Shown here: positions 41,956-48,137 of the stretch, in pieces
How positions within the stretch are numbered: the first letter of the stretch is position 1
How the letters are laid out: the number at the start of each line of letters is the position of its first letter
Origin: an uncultured Verrucomicrobiota bacterium
GTDB taxonomy: Bacteria > Verrucomicrobiota > Verrucomicrobiia > Limisphaerales > CAIQOK01
Assembly (NCBI GenBank): GCA_903873415.1
Contig: CAIQOK010000019.1
Location: forward strand, 1-64,000
Length of the DNA stretch: 64,000 bases
Direction: 5' to 3'
Notes under the pieces: generated by a model
What the model was told of the DNA's origin: nothing
Seen by the model: only the letters and a program-made list of their open reading frames with translations
The model's database searches: none
Program-made: the position numbers and the translations under genes

Positions 41956-44082
41956 CTAAAAACGATATTGCAGGCTGGTGAAAATAACGTGCGCATCATA
42001 GCTGAATTGTTGTCCCGAGGCGGCATCCGAGTAGCGAGTGAAGGCGTATTTCAAATTCAGGCGCAGGTGTGAAGAGATCCGCCGGGTAAGTGAGCTCGTA
42101 AGGCTGTGTTCCTCCGCTCCGGCCCCGTAGGGGACTCCTTGGACGATGATATTCTGGTAGTCATTGGCGCGGTAGTAAAAATAGCCCAGATTCAAATCGG
42201 TTTTGGCATCCAGGACGAACCCGGAGTTGAAGTTGGCCGTCCAATAATTATTCCGTGCATTGAGAAGGGCCTGGGTGTGATCGGAGGCCGGTGTTTGGGT
42301 GGCACTTAAAACGAAATTCAACCCGGCCTGCAGGCTTAGCCAGCTCAACGGCGTCCAGCTTGCATTCTGCCCGAGAACATGACTGCGCATCCTCGAAGCC
42401 TCCACGCCATCAAGACCGGACGCGGGATCGGGACCGGTGCGGATGTCGGAAATCTGGTATTCATAACGGGTTACCAGCGTGATTTTTGCGGCTGGCCGCA
42501 GCGTGAGCCGCACGTTGCCGTCCTCTGTTTCAAACCCCTGATAAATCAGGAACCCCGGGTAGGCGTCACCACTGCTCAGATTGTTGGGTGTGCTGTCAAG
42601 CGGGTTGGTGTAATTGTAGCGGTTTGCTTTGTGATAGCCGCCGAAATCCACGCTGGCCTGCTTGACCGGATACCATCGCGCATTGACCGAGTATTTTTGG
42701 AAAAAAGTGGAGTCGTCGGTTTCGTTGAGCAGTGGAGCAGGCCCGATTCCGGCGATCTGGCTCAGACCTCCGCTTTGCCGCAGGCTGCCCTGGCTTTCGG
42801 TCCATTCGCCTCCGACACCAAACACCCAATTGGTGATGCCTGTGTAGCGCAAGTCCAGCCGCTCGCGCACCTGAAGTGAATTGCGCTCGCTCTGCGCAGT
42901 GAAAGGTTCCGGGGCGAACGCCCCCAGAGTGCCCATGCCGCCGCTGTGCGCATCCCAATCCTTCTGTTCAATGCGCAGCGAGGGTGTGACGCTCAAGAAC
43001 GGGGTCGGTTGGGACAAAAGATTGAGGTTGCCCACATACTCGGTCTTGCGCGCGCCGCCGTTGAGGTTGTAGTAACCATACCCTAGGGCCGGATACCCGG
43101 GCAAATAGGCGACGTTGAAATCGTCCCCGTAAATCCGGCTGCCGGCCAAGTTGTCATCGAGGCTGGCGAACAAAAAAGCGGTGGAGAAAAAGAGGCCCGG
43201 CTTGAGCCACGTCTCACTGAACGCATGCACGCTTCCCGTATCCCAAGTGGTTTCCTGACGGTCGCTGGCCCGTTGCTGAACCGGTTCCCCGTGCCAGAAC
43301 GTCACCCCCCGCGTGTCATTGACCGTTCCGATTTCCAGCCGCCCGACCGCCCCCACCTCGGTTTTCCTGACGCGCTGCGTCACGTCGATCTGGAAGATGT
43401 CGGTTTTTTCGTCGATCGTATAAAGCCCAGGAAACAGGGCGCGCGTGCCATCCGAGGTGTGGTCCGGCCCCCAGCTGGTTGAACTTTTTTCACCCTCGCG
43501 ATAGCGGTGAGTGTATTTGAAAGTGACCTTCGGAAGGTTCTTTTTCGTCAACCCGGCCTCCAGAGATATCTGCCCGCGATCCAGTCCCGAGGCGGCTCCG
43601 GGCAACGCGTAGGCAAGTGCGTCGGTGGAGGAAAACCCGCCAACCCCGGAATCCCAAGTCCGGAAATTCTCAAAATTAAAGCGCACAAACCCGTAATCCT
43701 CCCGCCTCAATCCCAGGCCAAACTTGTAGTCGTGGTTGTCCGCAACGGAACGCCCGTCCAAACTGAAGGTTGTGTTCTTGGCCACCTCGCGCTGGTAATG
43801 CAAGTCCTCAATGCCTCCGAATATTCCCGTGCTCAGACGCTGCCGCTGCTGAGCCTGACCGGCATAGCCACCGGTCAGCAGAACGCCGGAGGACAATTCA
43901 ATCCAGTTGATGAACGTGTTGGTCCCGCCTTCGTATTGCTGCTCCGGGGAGACGGCGTCAAGCGCCCTGGCAATCGCGGAGCTAAGCATCAGGGCTGCAC
44001 CGATACAGCGCGGGCCAAACGCCCTCCTGTTCGCATTCCCGCAAGGCGCCTTTTTCAAGATGGTTTGTTTTTTCATCGGCAT
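41956..44082 (-). CDS. MtrB/PioB-like outer-membrane barrel of a porin-cytochrome complex
   Basis: A 708-residue protein with a signal peptide (cleavage near ARALDA) and about 26 amphipathic strands typical of the MtrB/PioB family (YNYTNPLDSTPNN turn, FNFENFRTWDSG, KYAFTRYSDA), ending in the barrel terminus FTSLQYRF. Such barrels form a sheath in which a multiheme cytochrome spans the outer membrane. Its gene starts 12 bases after the 8-heme cytochrome stop, completing a three-gene minus-strand unit. Confidence 0.85.
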   Translation of the reverse strand: MPMKKQTILKKAPCGNANRRAFGPRCIGAALMLSSAIARALDAVSPEQQYEGGTNTFINWIELSSGVLLTGGYAGQAQQRQRLSTGIFGGIEDLHYQREVAKNTTFSLDGRSVADNHDYKFGLGLRREDYGFVRFNFENFRTWDSGVGGFSSTDALAYALPGAASGLDRGQISLEAGLTKKNLPKVTFKYTHRYREGEKSSTSWGPDHTSDGTRALFPGLYTIDEKTDIFQIDVTQRVRKTEVGAVGRLEIGTVNDTRGVTFWHGEPVQQRASDRQETTWDTGSVHAFSETWLKPGLFFSTAFLFASLDDNLAGSRIYGDDFNVAYLPGYPALGYGYYNLNGGARKTEYVGNLNLLSQPTPFLSVTPSLRIEQKDWDAHSGGMGTLGAFAPEPFTAQSERNSLQVRERLDLRYTGITNWVFGVGGEWTESQGSLRQSGGLSQIAGIGPAPLLNETDDSTFFQKYSVNARWYPVKQASVDFGGYHKANRYNYTNPLDSTPNNLSSGDAYPGFLIYQGFETEDGNVRLTLRPAAKITLVTRYEYQISDIRTGPDPASGLDGVEASRMRSHVLGQNASWTPLSWLSLQAGLNFVLSATQTPASDHTQALLNARNNYWTANFNSGFVLDAKTDLNLGYFYYRANDYQNIIVQGVPYGAGAEEHSLTSSLTRRISSHLRLNLKYAFTRYSDAASGQQFSYDAHVIFTSLQYRF

Positions 44083-44094
44083 CCGGGTTTCGGT

Positions 44095-44922
44095 TTAAAA
44101 CCTCAGGGAAGGATTGACGCGCGAGCCGTGCACCGCCTCGTGGCAGCCCGCGGTCCAGCAGGTGCCCTGCGGCAGGCGCAGGGTATGGTCCACGCCGCCG
44201 ATCAAGAGGCTGCCGCTTTTAAACTGTTGGAAGTGGCATTTGAAACAAAGATTGGCGTCGCGCGCGGTCAACATCTTGGCGTTGATGCTGCCGTGGGGTG
44301 AATGGCAGGAAGTGCATCCTTCCCGCAGCGCTTCATGTTCGAAAACATAGGGCCCCTGCTGCGAAGGATGGCATTGCAAACAGTTTTCCTCCCGGGACAG
44401 CAGCGCGGTGCTTCCCCCGGCGTGGGCTATTCCCCTGTGCGGCGGGTGACACTGAACACAGCTCATACGCCCCTCGGGAACGGGATGATGATTGGGCAGG
44501 TTAAACTGTCCCCGGATATCCAGATGACACTCATAACAGACCGTCTCGACCGAGCGTGACGTGGTGAGCGCAAGCCTCGCCCCCTGCCCATTGGGTAGCG
44601 GCCGGCCGGAGGTGAAACTGTAAGGCGGCTTGGTTTCCCCCCCGGAATCGGAATGTATGCTGCCCGGGCCGTGACAAGATTCGCATCCGGCGCCTAGGCC
44701 GTTTTTACCCTCGGCAATCAGCCGCGCGTGATCGGCGGTCTTGAAGCTGCGGCTGATTTCCTCATGGCACTGCTCGCATTCCTTAGCCCCGATGTATTTC
44801 GCGCCGGGAACCTCCGGCAGCACCACAACGGCCCGGTGGGTCGTACGACAGGATATCGCAGCCGATAGCACGGCCGCCAGGCCCAGCAGCCACGAAAATC
44901 TGATGGTTTGATGAAGTGTCAT
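44095..44922 (-). CDS. Octaheme MtrA/DmsE-like cytochrome c
   Basis: A 275-residue protein from ATG 44922; the signal ends in SAAISC, possibly a lipobox. Seven CxxCH haem sites are seen (CEQCH, CESCH, CYECH, CVQCH, CLQCH, CTSCH, CFKCH) plus an eighth with wider spacing, CWTAGCH (Cx4CH), near the end (AGCHEAVHGSRVNPSLRF). The regular spacing with extra His ligands (NLPNHHPVPEG) resembles DmsE/MtrA decaheme proteins with two sites fewer. It should sit inside the barrel encoded next and carry electrons through the outer membrane. Confidence 0.87.
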   Translation of the reverse strand: MTLHQTIRFSWLLGLAAVLSAAISCRTTHRAVVVLPEVPGAKYIGAKECEQCHEEISRSFKTADHARLIAEGKNGLGAGCESCHGPGSIHSDSGGETKPPYSFTSGRPLPNGQGARLALTTSRSVETVCYECHLDIRGQFNLPNHHPVPEGRMSCVQCHPPHRGIAHAGGSTALLSREENCLQCHPSQQGPYVFEHEALREGCTSCHSPHGSINAKMLTARDANLCFKCHFQQFKSGSLLIGGVDHTLRLPQGTCWTAGCHEAVHGSRVNPSLRF

Positions 44923-44974
44923 GCCGGCTTTTTTGTTGTCTCTCGTTTCCCGTCTCTTTCCAGCCGCCCGGCTG

Positions 44975-46861
44975 TCAATACCCCAGCTCCTGCAGCACCC
45001 AGTCGTAGGCCGTATCAAGCAGCCTTAGGGCGAAGTAGGGGTTGTGAACGCCATGACTGCCGTCGTTGAGGACCAGGTAAAGATTGAAGCGCGCCTTCTT
45101 GATATTGTCCGGGATTATCGACTGCCCGGCCGCAGCCGGCCCACTGAAGCGGACCCCGCGGGCCTGGGTCCAGCCGGCGATGCCCCCGCTGCTGTTGGTC
45201 TGCCAAACCAAGCCGCCGGGCGTGATGTATTCCCAGGGAACAATTCCCGGGGCGCGCAACCGCTCCGCGGCCGTGGTGTCGCCCCACAAATCCAGCGCGT
45301 ATTTCAGGTTGTAAACCCGATTGGATACGGCAGGCACCATGACGTATTGCACCAAGAGCTCGGGCTCGAAATTGTGGCACTTTAGACACACCCCGTAATT
45401 GCTCATGCCCAGCTTGTGGCTGTGCAGCGCTTGGGCCGACTCGGGGTCCTGTTGCATGTGGCAGCTGACACATTGGTTGGTGAGATAAAACGCCCCGGAG
45501 AGCGAGTTGCCGGCGCTGGACGGCAGACCTGCGTGTGTGCCCGGATTAAAGTCCGCCGGTCCGCCGGCCAGCTCGCCCACCGAGCCCAGCATAAAATTAT
45601 ACTGCGCCGATCCATGCGGCGCGTGGTCGTCCAGATAATTCGTAACCACAATCCTGTTCGTGTAGACCACCGAGTTGATTCTTAAAACCACCTCGTTGGT
45701 TGCGGCGCTTCTCCAGCTTTCGCCCCGGTCGTTATGGCACTGCGCGCACAGGTTGATGTTGGCGTTGTATTTCGCGGCAAAACTGTCCGCCGCGGCCAGA
45801 TGAAACGCGTTGGTCGAATAAACAGGATTCCTCAACTGGCCCGGAACCGAATTGGTCTGATGCGGATCGTGGCAAACAACGCAGGTGATGGGCACATTGT
45901 AGTCGTCCTTCAGGGTCACTGCGGGATTCTGCCCGGCAATCAAGGCCAGCCGCGCGGTGCCGGAGTGGCACCGGCCGCAAGTGCTGATATTATCCGGGTT
46001 TGCGGCCATGACCGCAGCCGCCTCCGGCACCACTGCCGCATGCCCGCTCGAGGACCATTCCTCATAGGTGGGCTGCCGGGCCCCGGTGTGGCACCCTCCG
46101 CAAACCTGCGCCGCGATGTCCACCCGCGGCCGTACCACGGGATCCGTTTCGTTGGCGGCGTGATTGCCGGCCGGGCCATGACAGTTCTCGCACTGCACTC
46201 CGGCCAGGTTGGTGGTGTAGGAGAAAAAACCGCTCCGGTTCGTCAGGCTGAATCCGCTTGGCAACCCGTAACCCACGGTGTGGCAGGGCAGGCAACTGCT
46301 GTTGGTCTGGCCTCCGGCCCCCTTGAACGCTGGACTGAGAAACGCCATAGCATGAGGCGTATTCGTTTCATAGCGGCACACTTTGAGGTGGCACGAGACG
46401 CAAACTTTCGCCCCGGCATATTGCGGAGCGGCGCAGGAAACCCGGAAAAAAGCATCGGGATAGAGGGCGGCCACGCGGACGCTACCTTGGTAATTCGTCG
46501 CTTTGCCCAGCGCCTCCCACGGAGCGGTCAAATGGTTGGACTTTTGATGGATCTGATAATACGCCGGGGGGCCTTCCCAGGTCAGCTGCATCGCGTTGCT
46601 CCCTTTAGTGATTCCGGTCATCACTGGCAACCCCGGCATTCCGCCCGGCTGAGTCACACTCAAATGCTGCACCGCCTGGCTTCGGGCCAGCCCCAGCCAG
46701 ATCAATGCCGCAATGAACAGAGCCCTTGCCCTTCCGCCCTTCCTGCCGCCCGTGCCCTGGCCCCCAGCCACAACGCCCCCAAAGACGGGCGCCCTAAGAC
46801 TGCCGGGCGCAATCCCCGGCCCGCCGCGCGGAAAAATCGCTCGTGCTGCGATCACGCTCAT
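44975..46861 (-). CDS. Nonaheme exported cytochrome c
   Basis: A 628-residue protein with an N-terminal hydrophobic segment (ALFIAALIWLGLARSQA); the true start may be downstream of 46861. After a fibronectin-like part (~70-150) come nine CxxCH sites (CVSCH, CLPCH, CENCH, CGGCH, CGRCH, CVVCH, CAQCH, CVSCH, CLKCH), then a haem-free C-terminal domain (~500-628) ending in a helix DTAYDWVLQELGY. It is likely the outer or periplasmic electron partner of the MtrA/MtrB-like pair. First gene of the unit; it is divergent from the GldG-like gene. Confidence 0.87.
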   Translation of the reverse strand: MSVIAARAIFPRGGPGIAPGSLRAPVFGGVVAGGQGTGGRKGGRARALFIAALIWLGLARSQAVQHLSVTQPGGMPGLPVMTGITKGSNAMQLTWEGPPAYYQIHQKSNHLTAPWEALGKATNYQGSVRVAALYPDAFFRVSCAAPQYAGAKVCVSCHLKVCRYETNTPHAMAFLSPAFKGAGGQTNSSCLPCHTVGYGLPSGFSLTNRSGFFSYTTNLAGVQCENCHGPAGNHAANETDPVVRPRVDIAAQVCGGCHTGARQPTYEEWSSSGHAAVVPEAAAVMAANPDNISTCGRCHSGTARLALIAGQNPAVTLKDDYNVPITCVVCHDPHQTNSVPGQLRNPVYSTNAFHLAAADSFAAKYNANINLCAQCHNDRGESWRSAATNEVVLRINSVVYTNRIVVTNYLDDHAPHGSAQYNFMLGSVGELAGGPADFNPGTHAGLPSSAGNSLSGAFYLTNQCVSCHMQQDPESAQALHSHKLGMSNYGVCLKCHNFEPELLVQYVMVPAVSNRVYNLKYALDLWGDTTAAERLRAPGIVPWEYITPGGLVWQTNSSGGIAGWTQARGVRFSGPAAAGQSIIPDNIKKARFNLYLVLNDGSHGVHNPYFALRLLDTAYDWVLQELGY

Positions 46862-47219
46862 AATTTATAGGTCAGGCTGGCCTCACCTCTCTCCGTCGGG
46901 CTGGAAACCAGGCTTCCAAACGCCCAAGGCCGCCGGGATCCGGAAGGCTCCACAAAGCCCTTTAAAAAAAGCCCCGGACCACCGAAAAGTGTAACCAGCC
47001 GGCGGCTTAGAACTTCTCGGAAATTGCCGCACTCTCACCAACCTTTGTTTGACCGTAAACCGCTCAGATGCCATCCGGCCGCCGGGGTGTGTCATGGGTT
47101 TGCCAAGACCTCAAGCAAACCTCGATATCCCGGCACAAAAGCGGCATCGTCGGAACATTTCAAAAATTGACAGATGCCAGACAGGCCGCAGTATTTGGGG
47201 GGAAGTTAAAAACAACATT
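46862..47219. other. Divergent intergenic region of the cytochrome operon
   Basis: 358 bases between the cytochrome unit and the GldG-like gene. A TATAAA is seen 4-10 bases before the cytochrome ATG (minus strand). Open frames are short and have no family features; promoters for both sides are expected here. Confidence 0.4.
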
Positions 47220-48137
47220 ATGACCAGAACCCCTCTTGAAAAATGCGGGTCCGCCAGAAGCGCAACCAAAAACAAAGCACCCTCCGTGTTTGTGCCGTCG
47301 CTCTGTTTCCTGCTGGGCTTGGGTTTGGGCGCCTTCTGGTTTTATCCGCACAAATCCGGACACCCCCCTGAAAACCAAACCATCCAAATTTCCGGGCAAA
47401 CCCGCTCCGTTCTGCGGCACTTGGGCGCTCCTGTCGAAATCCGTTTGTTCTCGCTGCTCCCCGCACCAACGGCACCGGAATCACTCCAGGCCTACAGCCG
47501 GCGCGTGGCGGCCCTGCTGAATTTGATCGGAAAGGAAAGCGCAGGCCTTGTAAAAACCAGCGTGCTGGGCCAGCCGACCCATGCCGCCGCCGCCGCCGCC
47601 GAAGGATTGACGGCGTTCAATCTGGAGAAGGGCGAGCCCTGTTTTCTTGGTATGACGCTGGTTTGCGCGGACCGCAAAGAATCCTTTCCCCGGCTCCAAC
47701 CGGCATGGGAGTCGGCTCTTGAATCGGATCTGGCCCGGGCGCTGGAGCGATTGTCGGCACAGCGCACCATTCCCTTGCCCGGACCGGCACTGGATCCGGA
47801 TGAAGTTGCCAGCGGCACGCTTGCCATTGGGCGCCTGATCCCCAACTTCAAGGAAATACCCTTTGATGAGTGTGTTCGTGCTTTGCGCGAGGCAGCCGGC
47901 AGAGATTTGGCGGAAGCCGGAGCTGAGATGGAAAAACAGATCAGCAAGGCGCAGCGCGCGCTGCAAAACGCACAGGAGGCCGATTCCCAAGCCGGGCAAC
48001 TGGAGGCCAGGAGCCGGCTTCAAAAAACCCAGTTGGAACAGGCCGACAAACTCAAGCAAATCACCGCCCGGCTTCAATCACGCATCACCGTGTTACGACA
48101 ACTCAAGAGCCCCGCGCCGGCCCAGCTTCCCAATTGA
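47220..48137 (+). CDS. GldG-like ABC-associated protein
   Basis: A 305-residue protein with one N-terminal helix (FVPSLCFLLGLGLGAFWFY). The middle resembles the GldG/ABC_transp_aux extracellular domain (VEIRLFSLLP, AYSRRVAALLNLIGKE, AAEGLTAFNLEKGEPCFLGM, LESDLARALERLS). The last 90 residues are a coiled coil (EMEKQISKAQRALQNAQEAD). In other Verrucomicrobiota and Bacteroidota such proteins accompany an ABC permease and ATPase, but none is next to it here. Confidence 0.7.
   Translation: MTRTPLEKCGSARSATKNKAPSVFVPSLCFLLGLGLGAFWFYPHKSGHPPENQTIQISGQTRSVLRHLGAPVEIRLFSLLPAPTAPESLQAYSRRVAALLNLIGKESAGLVKTSVLGQPTHAAAAAAEGLTAFNLEKGEPCFLGMTLVCADRKESFPRLQPAWESALESDLARALERLSAQRTIPLPGPALDPDEVASGTLAIGRLIPNFKEIPFDECVRALREAAGRDLAEAGAEMEKQISKAQRALQNAQEADSQAGQLEARSRLQKTQLEQADKLKQITARLQSRITVLRQLKSPAPAQLPN

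Follow-up and report, generated by a model that had tools for sequence, protein, structure and literature searches.

A Verrucomicrobial Operon Coding for a Candidate MtrAB-Like Electron Conduit and an OcwA-Type Nonahaem Cytochrome

Operon Organization and Proposed Function

The 64,000-nucleotide stretch of DNA analyzed here (referred to as the window) belongs to contig CAIQOK010000019.1 of an uncultured Verrucomicrobiota bacterium from the order Limisphaerales (assembly GCA_903873415.1). Three genes on its minus strand, tightly spaced between positions 41956 and 46861, code for a nonahaem cytochrome, an octahaem cytochrome and a 708-residue barrel. Their product is probably a trans-outer-membrane electron conduit of MtrAB-like type that works outward, from quinol to an external acceptor. 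A preliminary description of the same DNA had reported these genes as one tight unit, with coordinates and haem counts that proved correct, and had proposed a porin–cytochrome operon and a candidate route for extracellular electron transfer (EET). The MtrB fold of the barrel, the MtrA-type octahaem protein, synteny and linkage to an ImcH-like gene speak for that proposal. The stop codon of the nonahaem gene is about 50 nt away from the octahaem ATG, and about 12 nt lie between the octahaem stop codon and the barrel ATG. The two cytochrome genes are the only frames of the 64-kb window with at least two CxxCH motifs. Clustering of these motifs by chance was rejected because the haem sites are invariant in relatives.

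Electrons are proposed to leave quinol at the inner membrane through an ImcH-like quinol oxidase with seven haems and to reach the octahaem protein, perhaps via a periplasmic carrier. An N-terminal lipid would anchor the octahaem protein to the outer membrane from the periplasm, and within the 26-strand barrel this protein would form a shorter version of the MtrA wire. Its last haem, held by a CX4CH motif, would hand electrons to the OcwA-type nonahaem protein on the outer face, which could deliver them to an external acceptor, for example oxides of Fe(III) or Mn(IV), humic quinones or a redox shuttle. It is about as likely as not that, in many Verrucomicrobiota, an ImcH-type oxidase, an MtrAB-like conduit with eight haems and a nonahaem protein of the OcwA type make up a single respiratory route dedicated to humics or minerals.

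The Barrel and the Octahaem Cytochrome

The barrel gene (41956–44082, minus strand) codes for a predicted outer-membrane protein of the MtrB fold. Its AlphaFold model, built from an alignment of 41 barrels, has 26 long strands with a mean predicted local distance difference test score (pLDDT) of 87.2 and a predicted template modeling score of 0.81. Of 350,542 PDB chains, the one closest to this model is MtrB from the MtrCAB complex of Shewanella (6r2q_B; TM-score 0.64, E 3.5e-14); TonB receptors come next, with TM-scores of 0.47 or less. Fold comparison was needed since PDB searches with the single sequence or with a profile found no real match; Pfam and NCBIfam models gave no match to the barrel either. 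In particular, the window barrel is not matched by PF11854 (MtrB_PioB), a model that finds one of the 41 aligned barrels at 0.007. The barrel family was also compared, profile to profile, with porins taken beside decahaem genes in other phyla. The proteobacterial MtrB_PioB set, three tested members of which match PF11854, was reached with a probability of 97% (E 8.7e-11), a score used only jointly with the fold result because beta-barrel profile comparisons are prone to false support. As modelled, the barrel is a conduit of the MtrB fold that is distant in sequence.

The octahaem protein is a predicted lipoprotein of the MtrA/DmsE/GSU2203 type. Its listed open reading frame (ORF; 44095–45018, minus strand) opens at a TTG, position 45018, that lies inside the upstream nonahaem gene; for this reason, and from comparison with relatives, the likely start is the ATG at 44922, which delimits the gene to 44095–44922. 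Seven CxxCH motifs begin at residues 81, 112, 161, 187, 213, 235 and 258, and an eighth site, CWTAGCH, at residue 287 (44140–44160). All eight are invariant among 39 aligned octahaem proteins, including C287, G291, C292 and H293 of the CX4CH motif (39/39), whose counterpart in the MtrA alignment is the final CxxCH. The haem number had been noted in the preliminary description as unlike that of the 10-haem MtrA, and this 7 + 1 pattern upholds the point. A further invariant cysteine (C57, 39/39; codon 44848–44850) follows the hydrophobic signal segment in a lipobox-like AIS-C context and is preceded by serine in 37 sequences and by alanine in two. These features make lipidation at C57 likely, as far as can be judged from sequence.

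The octahaem profile matches MtrA with an E-value of 1.2e-41 (6r2q chain A, taken here as MtrA; the PDB record names another protein for this chain). The NCBIfam models GSU2203 (8e-50, 169.8 bits) and DmsE (2.5e-44, 151.7 bits) are also matched, both under their curated cut-offs of 325 and 192.2, respectively. With these scores and eight haem sites, the protein lies outside the strict MtrA/DmsE decahaem family. Local alignments pair octahaem haems 1–2 with MtrA haems 1–2 and octahaem haems 3–8 with MtrA haems 5–10. The simplest reading of these pairings is that the octahaem protein has lost one two-haem unit from its interior. A decahaem MtrA that has lost two motifs to sequencing error was considered and rejected, as the 7 + 1 pattern is invariant in the 39 aligned sequences. 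In a tree with decahaem proteins of other phyla the Verrucomicrobiota octahaem proteins cluster together, except for an atypical one from Luteolibacter (L137) that has no barrel. The window protein is found among those of Verrucomicrobia subdivision 3, with Opitutaceae and Akkermansiaceae as other branches of the same group; this was a quick tree whose deep branches are weakly supported.

The Nonahaem Cytochrome

The nonahaem gene (44975–46861, minus strand) is an ORF of 628 residues that codes for a signal peptide, an FnIII-like domain, a nine-haem domain and C-terminal helices. Its start codon is uncertain within the first ~40 codons. The signal peptide is of the plain Sec type. The FnIII-like domain (residues ~75–143; 46433–46639) is modelled as strands over residues ~80–143 with a pLDDT of about 80, and FnIII domains are the top Foldseek matches of the nonahaem model in the PDB (probability 0.99, E 2e-2), in agreement with the fibronectin-like start that had been described from the sequence. 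The nine-haem domain (residues ~146–497; 45371–46426) carries CxxCH motifs at residues 154, 190, 224, 254, 295, 327, 372, 464 and 492, all nine invariant across 22 aligned nonahaem proteins. Its first part matches the Pfam family Cytochrome_C554 (1.6e-11) and its last part Cytochrom_C552 (3e-7). The structure of OcwA joins a c554-like tetrahaem part to a NrfA-like pentahaem part and ends in a C-terminal three-helix bundle (PMC6703420), so that a c554 match at the front and a NrfA match at the end are those expected for an OcwA build.

OmhA (6qvm) and OcwA (6i5b) rank first when the single sequence is searched against the PDB. The profile of the 22 relatives matches OcwA (6i5b) at 3.7e-37 in five ordered stretches that run over all nine haems to the C-terminal helix. 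The haem-free tail (residues ~500–627; 44981–45364) is modelled as helices at 500–529, 585–598 and 608–627, mostly with pLDDT of 75–91. It carries a DGS.G.HN motif, whose residues D600, G601, S602 and H606 are invariant in the 22 relatives and which aligns with DGSNGVHN of OcwA. The tail can be assigned to the helical C-terminus typical of the NrfA/OcwA superfamily. The preliminary description was right that a haem-free tail exists, though it could not place it in a known family. Its view that this cytochrome type looks new finds no support: the octahaem protein and porin match the set described by He et al. in 2017 (see below), and the nonahaem protein belongs with OcwA-type nonahaem cytochromes. 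Two other assignments were rejected for the latter. The MtrC/OmcA type disagrees with nine haems instead of ten, the missing lipobox and the lack of a TIGR03507 match at E 0.1; a plain NrfA disagrees with the absence of CxxCK, all paired cysteines being in CxxCH, and with nine sites instead of five.

OcwA and OmhA, the nearest solved relatives, are cell-surface EET cytochromes. In OcwA, two haems are five-coordinate and the protein reduces nitrite and hydroxylamine (PMC6703420). One may therefore ask whether the nonahaem protein, at the end of an outward conduit, works mainly outside the cell as a reductase of small soluble compounds such as nitrite, hydroxylamine or sulfite, as other members of the NrfA/MccA/OcwA superfamily do. 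It does resemble NrfA and the octahaem nitrite reductases, and outside the CxxCH motifs its invariant histidines are eight (170, 234, 274, 334, 416, 443, 482 and 606) for nine haems, which may leave one or more of the haems open. We consider this role unlikely. Judged by alignment only, Arg262-Gln263 takes the place of the two histidines above haem 2 of OcwA (HH is retained in roughly half of the relatives), and His413-Ala414 that of the pair above haem 5 (mostly Arg-x in the family); this sequence does not preserve, as such, the pocket residues of the two open haems of OcwA. Furthermore, the CxxCK motif present in most NrfA proteins is lacking, and a soluble substrate entering the periplasm requires neither linkage to an ImcH-like gene nor an MtrB-type barrel. 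The nitrite reductase alternative raised in the preliminary description is less likely than EET. A search of the window's genome gave no full-length NrfA.

An even less probable arrangement is that the octahaem protein and the barrel are the conduit while the nonahaem protein stays in the periplasm as a feeding carrier or an enzyme. The plain Sec-type signal without lipobox would suit a periplasmic protein, and octahaem–barrel pairs without a nonahaem gene are common, for instance in Opitutaceae. This is countered by the cell-surface location of the nearest solved relatives and by the similarity to mtrC-type gene sets, in that an MtrAB-like pair is joined by a third multihaem cytochrome; an FnIII-like domain would also be typical of surface proteins. 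The outer face is preferred as the probable site of the nonahaem protein.

Another gene of the window's genome (L094:8226-11099:-, on G000:C40) codes for a 958-residue relative of the nonahaem protein with eight CxxCH motifs (E 1.9e-47 to the nonahaem profile), and at several related loci (L036, L037, L039, L041, L043) similar paralogues are encoded upstream of the operon. The same genome also codes for an 815-residue protein (L093:7476-9920:-, on G000:C158) in which eight CxxCH motifs are followed by HEAT and TPR repeats. In a member of the Chthonomonadaceae (Armatimonadota), a nonahaem relative with 7 + 1 haems (L174:11573-13027:+; 9.6e-55) is encoded near an MtrA-like protein with 9 + 1 haems. 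The pairing of a nonahaem-type with an MtrA-like protein may therefore reach beyond Verrucomicrobiota.

Conservation of the Operon in Limisphaerales

The distribution of the operon was followed in 97 genomes of the order Limisphaerales. A barrel match is present in 66 of them, and the operon is conserved across many families. There are two barrel subtypes, that of the window (37 genomes) and a longer one with an N-terminal PSCyt1 monohaem domain. Both follow the same kind of 7 + 1 octahaem protein, whose gene stands directly before the barrel gene in nearly every Verrucomicrobiota locus fetched. The nonahaem gene accompanies the window subtype: it is found in the same cluster in ~24 of 32 loci of this subtype vs. 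none of eight of the other. Counted per genome, it is present in 30 of 37 with the window subtype vs. 3 of 60 without it (p = 4e-15; p = 2e-9 with one genome per family). The PSCyt1 subtype shows no association with the nonahaem gene (p = 0.68) or with the ImcH-like gene (p = 1.0).

In the PSCyt1 subtype, the fusion of this domain (PF07635, E 2e-15) to the barrel amino terminus is seen in L064:5881-8400:+ and also in L063 and L065–L070, a layout that resembles the fused one of Cyc2. Two Opitutaceae loci (L102, L122) have two octahaem–barrel pairs in tandem on one contig. The pair is also found in Candidatus Omnitrophota (L128, L134), and downstream of the L134 barrel lies a gene for a variant that has two CX4CH motifs besides nine CxxCH.

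The ImcH-Like Partner and the Direction of Electron Flow

A single NapC/NirT-family gene was found in the window's genome (G000:C127). It codes for a 508-residue heptahaem protein with three hydrophobic segments, followed by one CX3CH and six CX2CH motifs. ImcH of Geobacter and its close kin have 495–519 residues, three transmembrane segments, one CX3CH and six CX2CH (PMC6295460), and by comparison of its sequence with this description the C127 product is ImcH-like; as in Geobacter ImcH, the CX3CH comes after the third segment. A NapC/CymA-like identity, taken first, was dropped because the motif set and the three hydrophobic segments fit ImcH better. In its own contig (L095; G000:C127:16000-28000) the gene is clustered with genes for a cytochrome c, a NrfD/DsrP-like protein with a cyclic nucleotide monophosphate-binding domain, an iron–sulfur protein and a tetrahaem cytochrome. 

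Eleven loci of relatives have the ImcH-like gene 0.4–0.7 kb downstream of the barrel gene and on the same strand. It is present in 30 of the 37 genomes with the window barrel subtype vs. 13 of 60 without (p = 1e-8; p = 8e-8 with one genome per family). A survey published in 2018 found ImcH homologues only in Fe(III) reducers and never mtrAB or mtoAB beside imcH (PMC6295460), unlike the neighbourhood seen in these 11 loci. The link between ImcH and the barrel appears to be new, as far as the literature was searched, and of the observations made here it argues most strongly for an outward flow.

It also bears on the reverse route, in which Fe(II) or another outside donor would feed electrons through the nonahaem to the octahaem protein, a direction put forward for PioAB and MtoAB. 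Conduction through haem wires works in either direction, MtoAB and PioAB are homologous conduits of Fe(II) oxidisers (PMC6344600), and three COX1-type oxidase genes are present in the genome. Against an inward direction stand the association with an ImcH-like gene, of a kind that up to 2018 had been seen in Fe(III) reducers alone (PMC6295460), and the RuBisCO search, which found none in the window's genome. We regard this direction as very unlikely.

A number of observations weigh against an outward conduit ending in the nonahaem protein. In the only other genome of the same genus (G001, 92% complete) an ImcH-like gene is present but a barrel match is absent, and in the window's genome the ImcH-like gene lies on another contig than the operon. 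The haem domain of the nonahaem protein is poorly modelled (mean pLDDT 54), ligation cannot be read from the model, and the whole-chain fold search, headed by FnIII domains, meets OcwA weakly at rank 49. Since the protein has no lipobox, its anchoring and its passage through the outer membrane are left unexplained. Finally, the three COX1-type oxidase genes imply that EET would not be the sole respiration of this bacterium. On the supporting side, genes for assembly of c-type cytochromes are present in its genome.

Relation to Known Systems

Porin–cytochrome sets of Verrucomicrobiota, mentioned in the preliminary description, were reported by He et al. in 2017: a porin is encoded beside a periplasmic cytochrome with 'eight conserved heme-binding sites', several sets add an extracellular multihaem cytochrome (MHC), and EET to humics was proposed (PMC5615132). 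Porin–MHC genes were reported there also for Opitutus terrae and others. Compared by description, the window operon is very probably this porin–MHC system: both have an eight-haem cytochrome beside a barrel of at least 20 strands in the same phylum, and the octahaem proteins of the Opitutaceae octahaem–barrel pairs share the tree group of the window's protein. Unlike in that account, where the sets were considered non-homologous to those of Geobacter and Shewanella, the components found here are distant relatives of MtrAB, an OcwA-type outer cytochrome and an ImcH-like partner.

The operon shares with Shewanella MtrAB(C) (6R2Q) and with PioAB/MtoAB a 26-strand barrel of the MtrB fold, an MtrA-family wire and a third multihaem cytochrome. 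It differs from these in that the wire has eight haems and not ten, the last one at CX4CH, and a lipobox-like cysteine; the barrel is missed by Pfam MtrB_PioB and the third protein is of the OcwA/NrfA and not of the MtrC/OmcA type. The Geobacter pair GSU2203/GSU2204 consists of a decahaem cytochrome and a CXXCH-containing partner. Among NCBIfam models the window octahaem protein scores best with GSU2203, which all 39 octahaem proteins match, and four barrel relatives touch the GSU2204 model; the window protein, however, lies well under the curated GSU2203 cut-off and has eight haems vs. ten. Strict membership in the MtrA, MtrB_PioB, MtrC and NrfA families fails, while the notion of a system that works like MtrCAB stands.

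Similarity to OcwA of Thermincola (6I5B), a cell-surface terminal reductase, covers the nine collinear haems, the c554-like plus NrfA-like build and the C-terminal helices. In contrast to OcwA, the window protein comes from a diderm host and a porin–cytochrome operon, has an FnIII-like domain in front, aligns H443 with an OcwA methionine and does not keep the His-His pockets over the open haems. In the tree of Gavrilov et al. (2021), OcwA is placed in a subclade of nonahaem cytochromes from Gram-negative bacteria (PMC7829351). The parts and the general idea are thus already known from the 2017 porin–MHC and the 2021 OcwA subclade. In the open-licence literature searched, the OcwA-type assignment within the operon, the MtrAB kinship of porin and octahaem protein and the ImcH link were not found, nor was an experimental test of a verrucomicrobial EET pathway. 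The chances are about equal for and against the operon being a mosaic in which a diderm uses a surface reductase of a type known from a Gram-positive bacterium and an ImcH-type oxidase is joined to an MtrAB-type conduit.

Verrucomicrobiota are abundant in soils and humic waters. The present analysis turns a loose prediction of a porin plus cytochromes into a named chain (ImcH-like protein, octahaem protein, barrel and OcwA-type nonahaem protein) with genome-wide support, and suggests that a conduit through the outer membrane can be connected to a surface reductase of the OcwA type. If the chain operates as proposed, carbon in anoxic humic environments could be respired instead of being fermented or turned into methane, a consequence already put forward by He et al.

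Genomic Surroundings

Scans of promoters and terminators gave no more matches than in shuffled sequence. Divergent from the operon, positions 47049–48137 (plus strand) code for a 362-residue, weakly DUF7088-like protein for which no link to the operon was found. The neighbours of the operon are unrelated to it: they code for a DUF885 protein, a methyltransferase-like protein, IleRS, a protein with DHH, CBS and DRTGG domains, YmdB, glycosyltransferases and a chloride channel.

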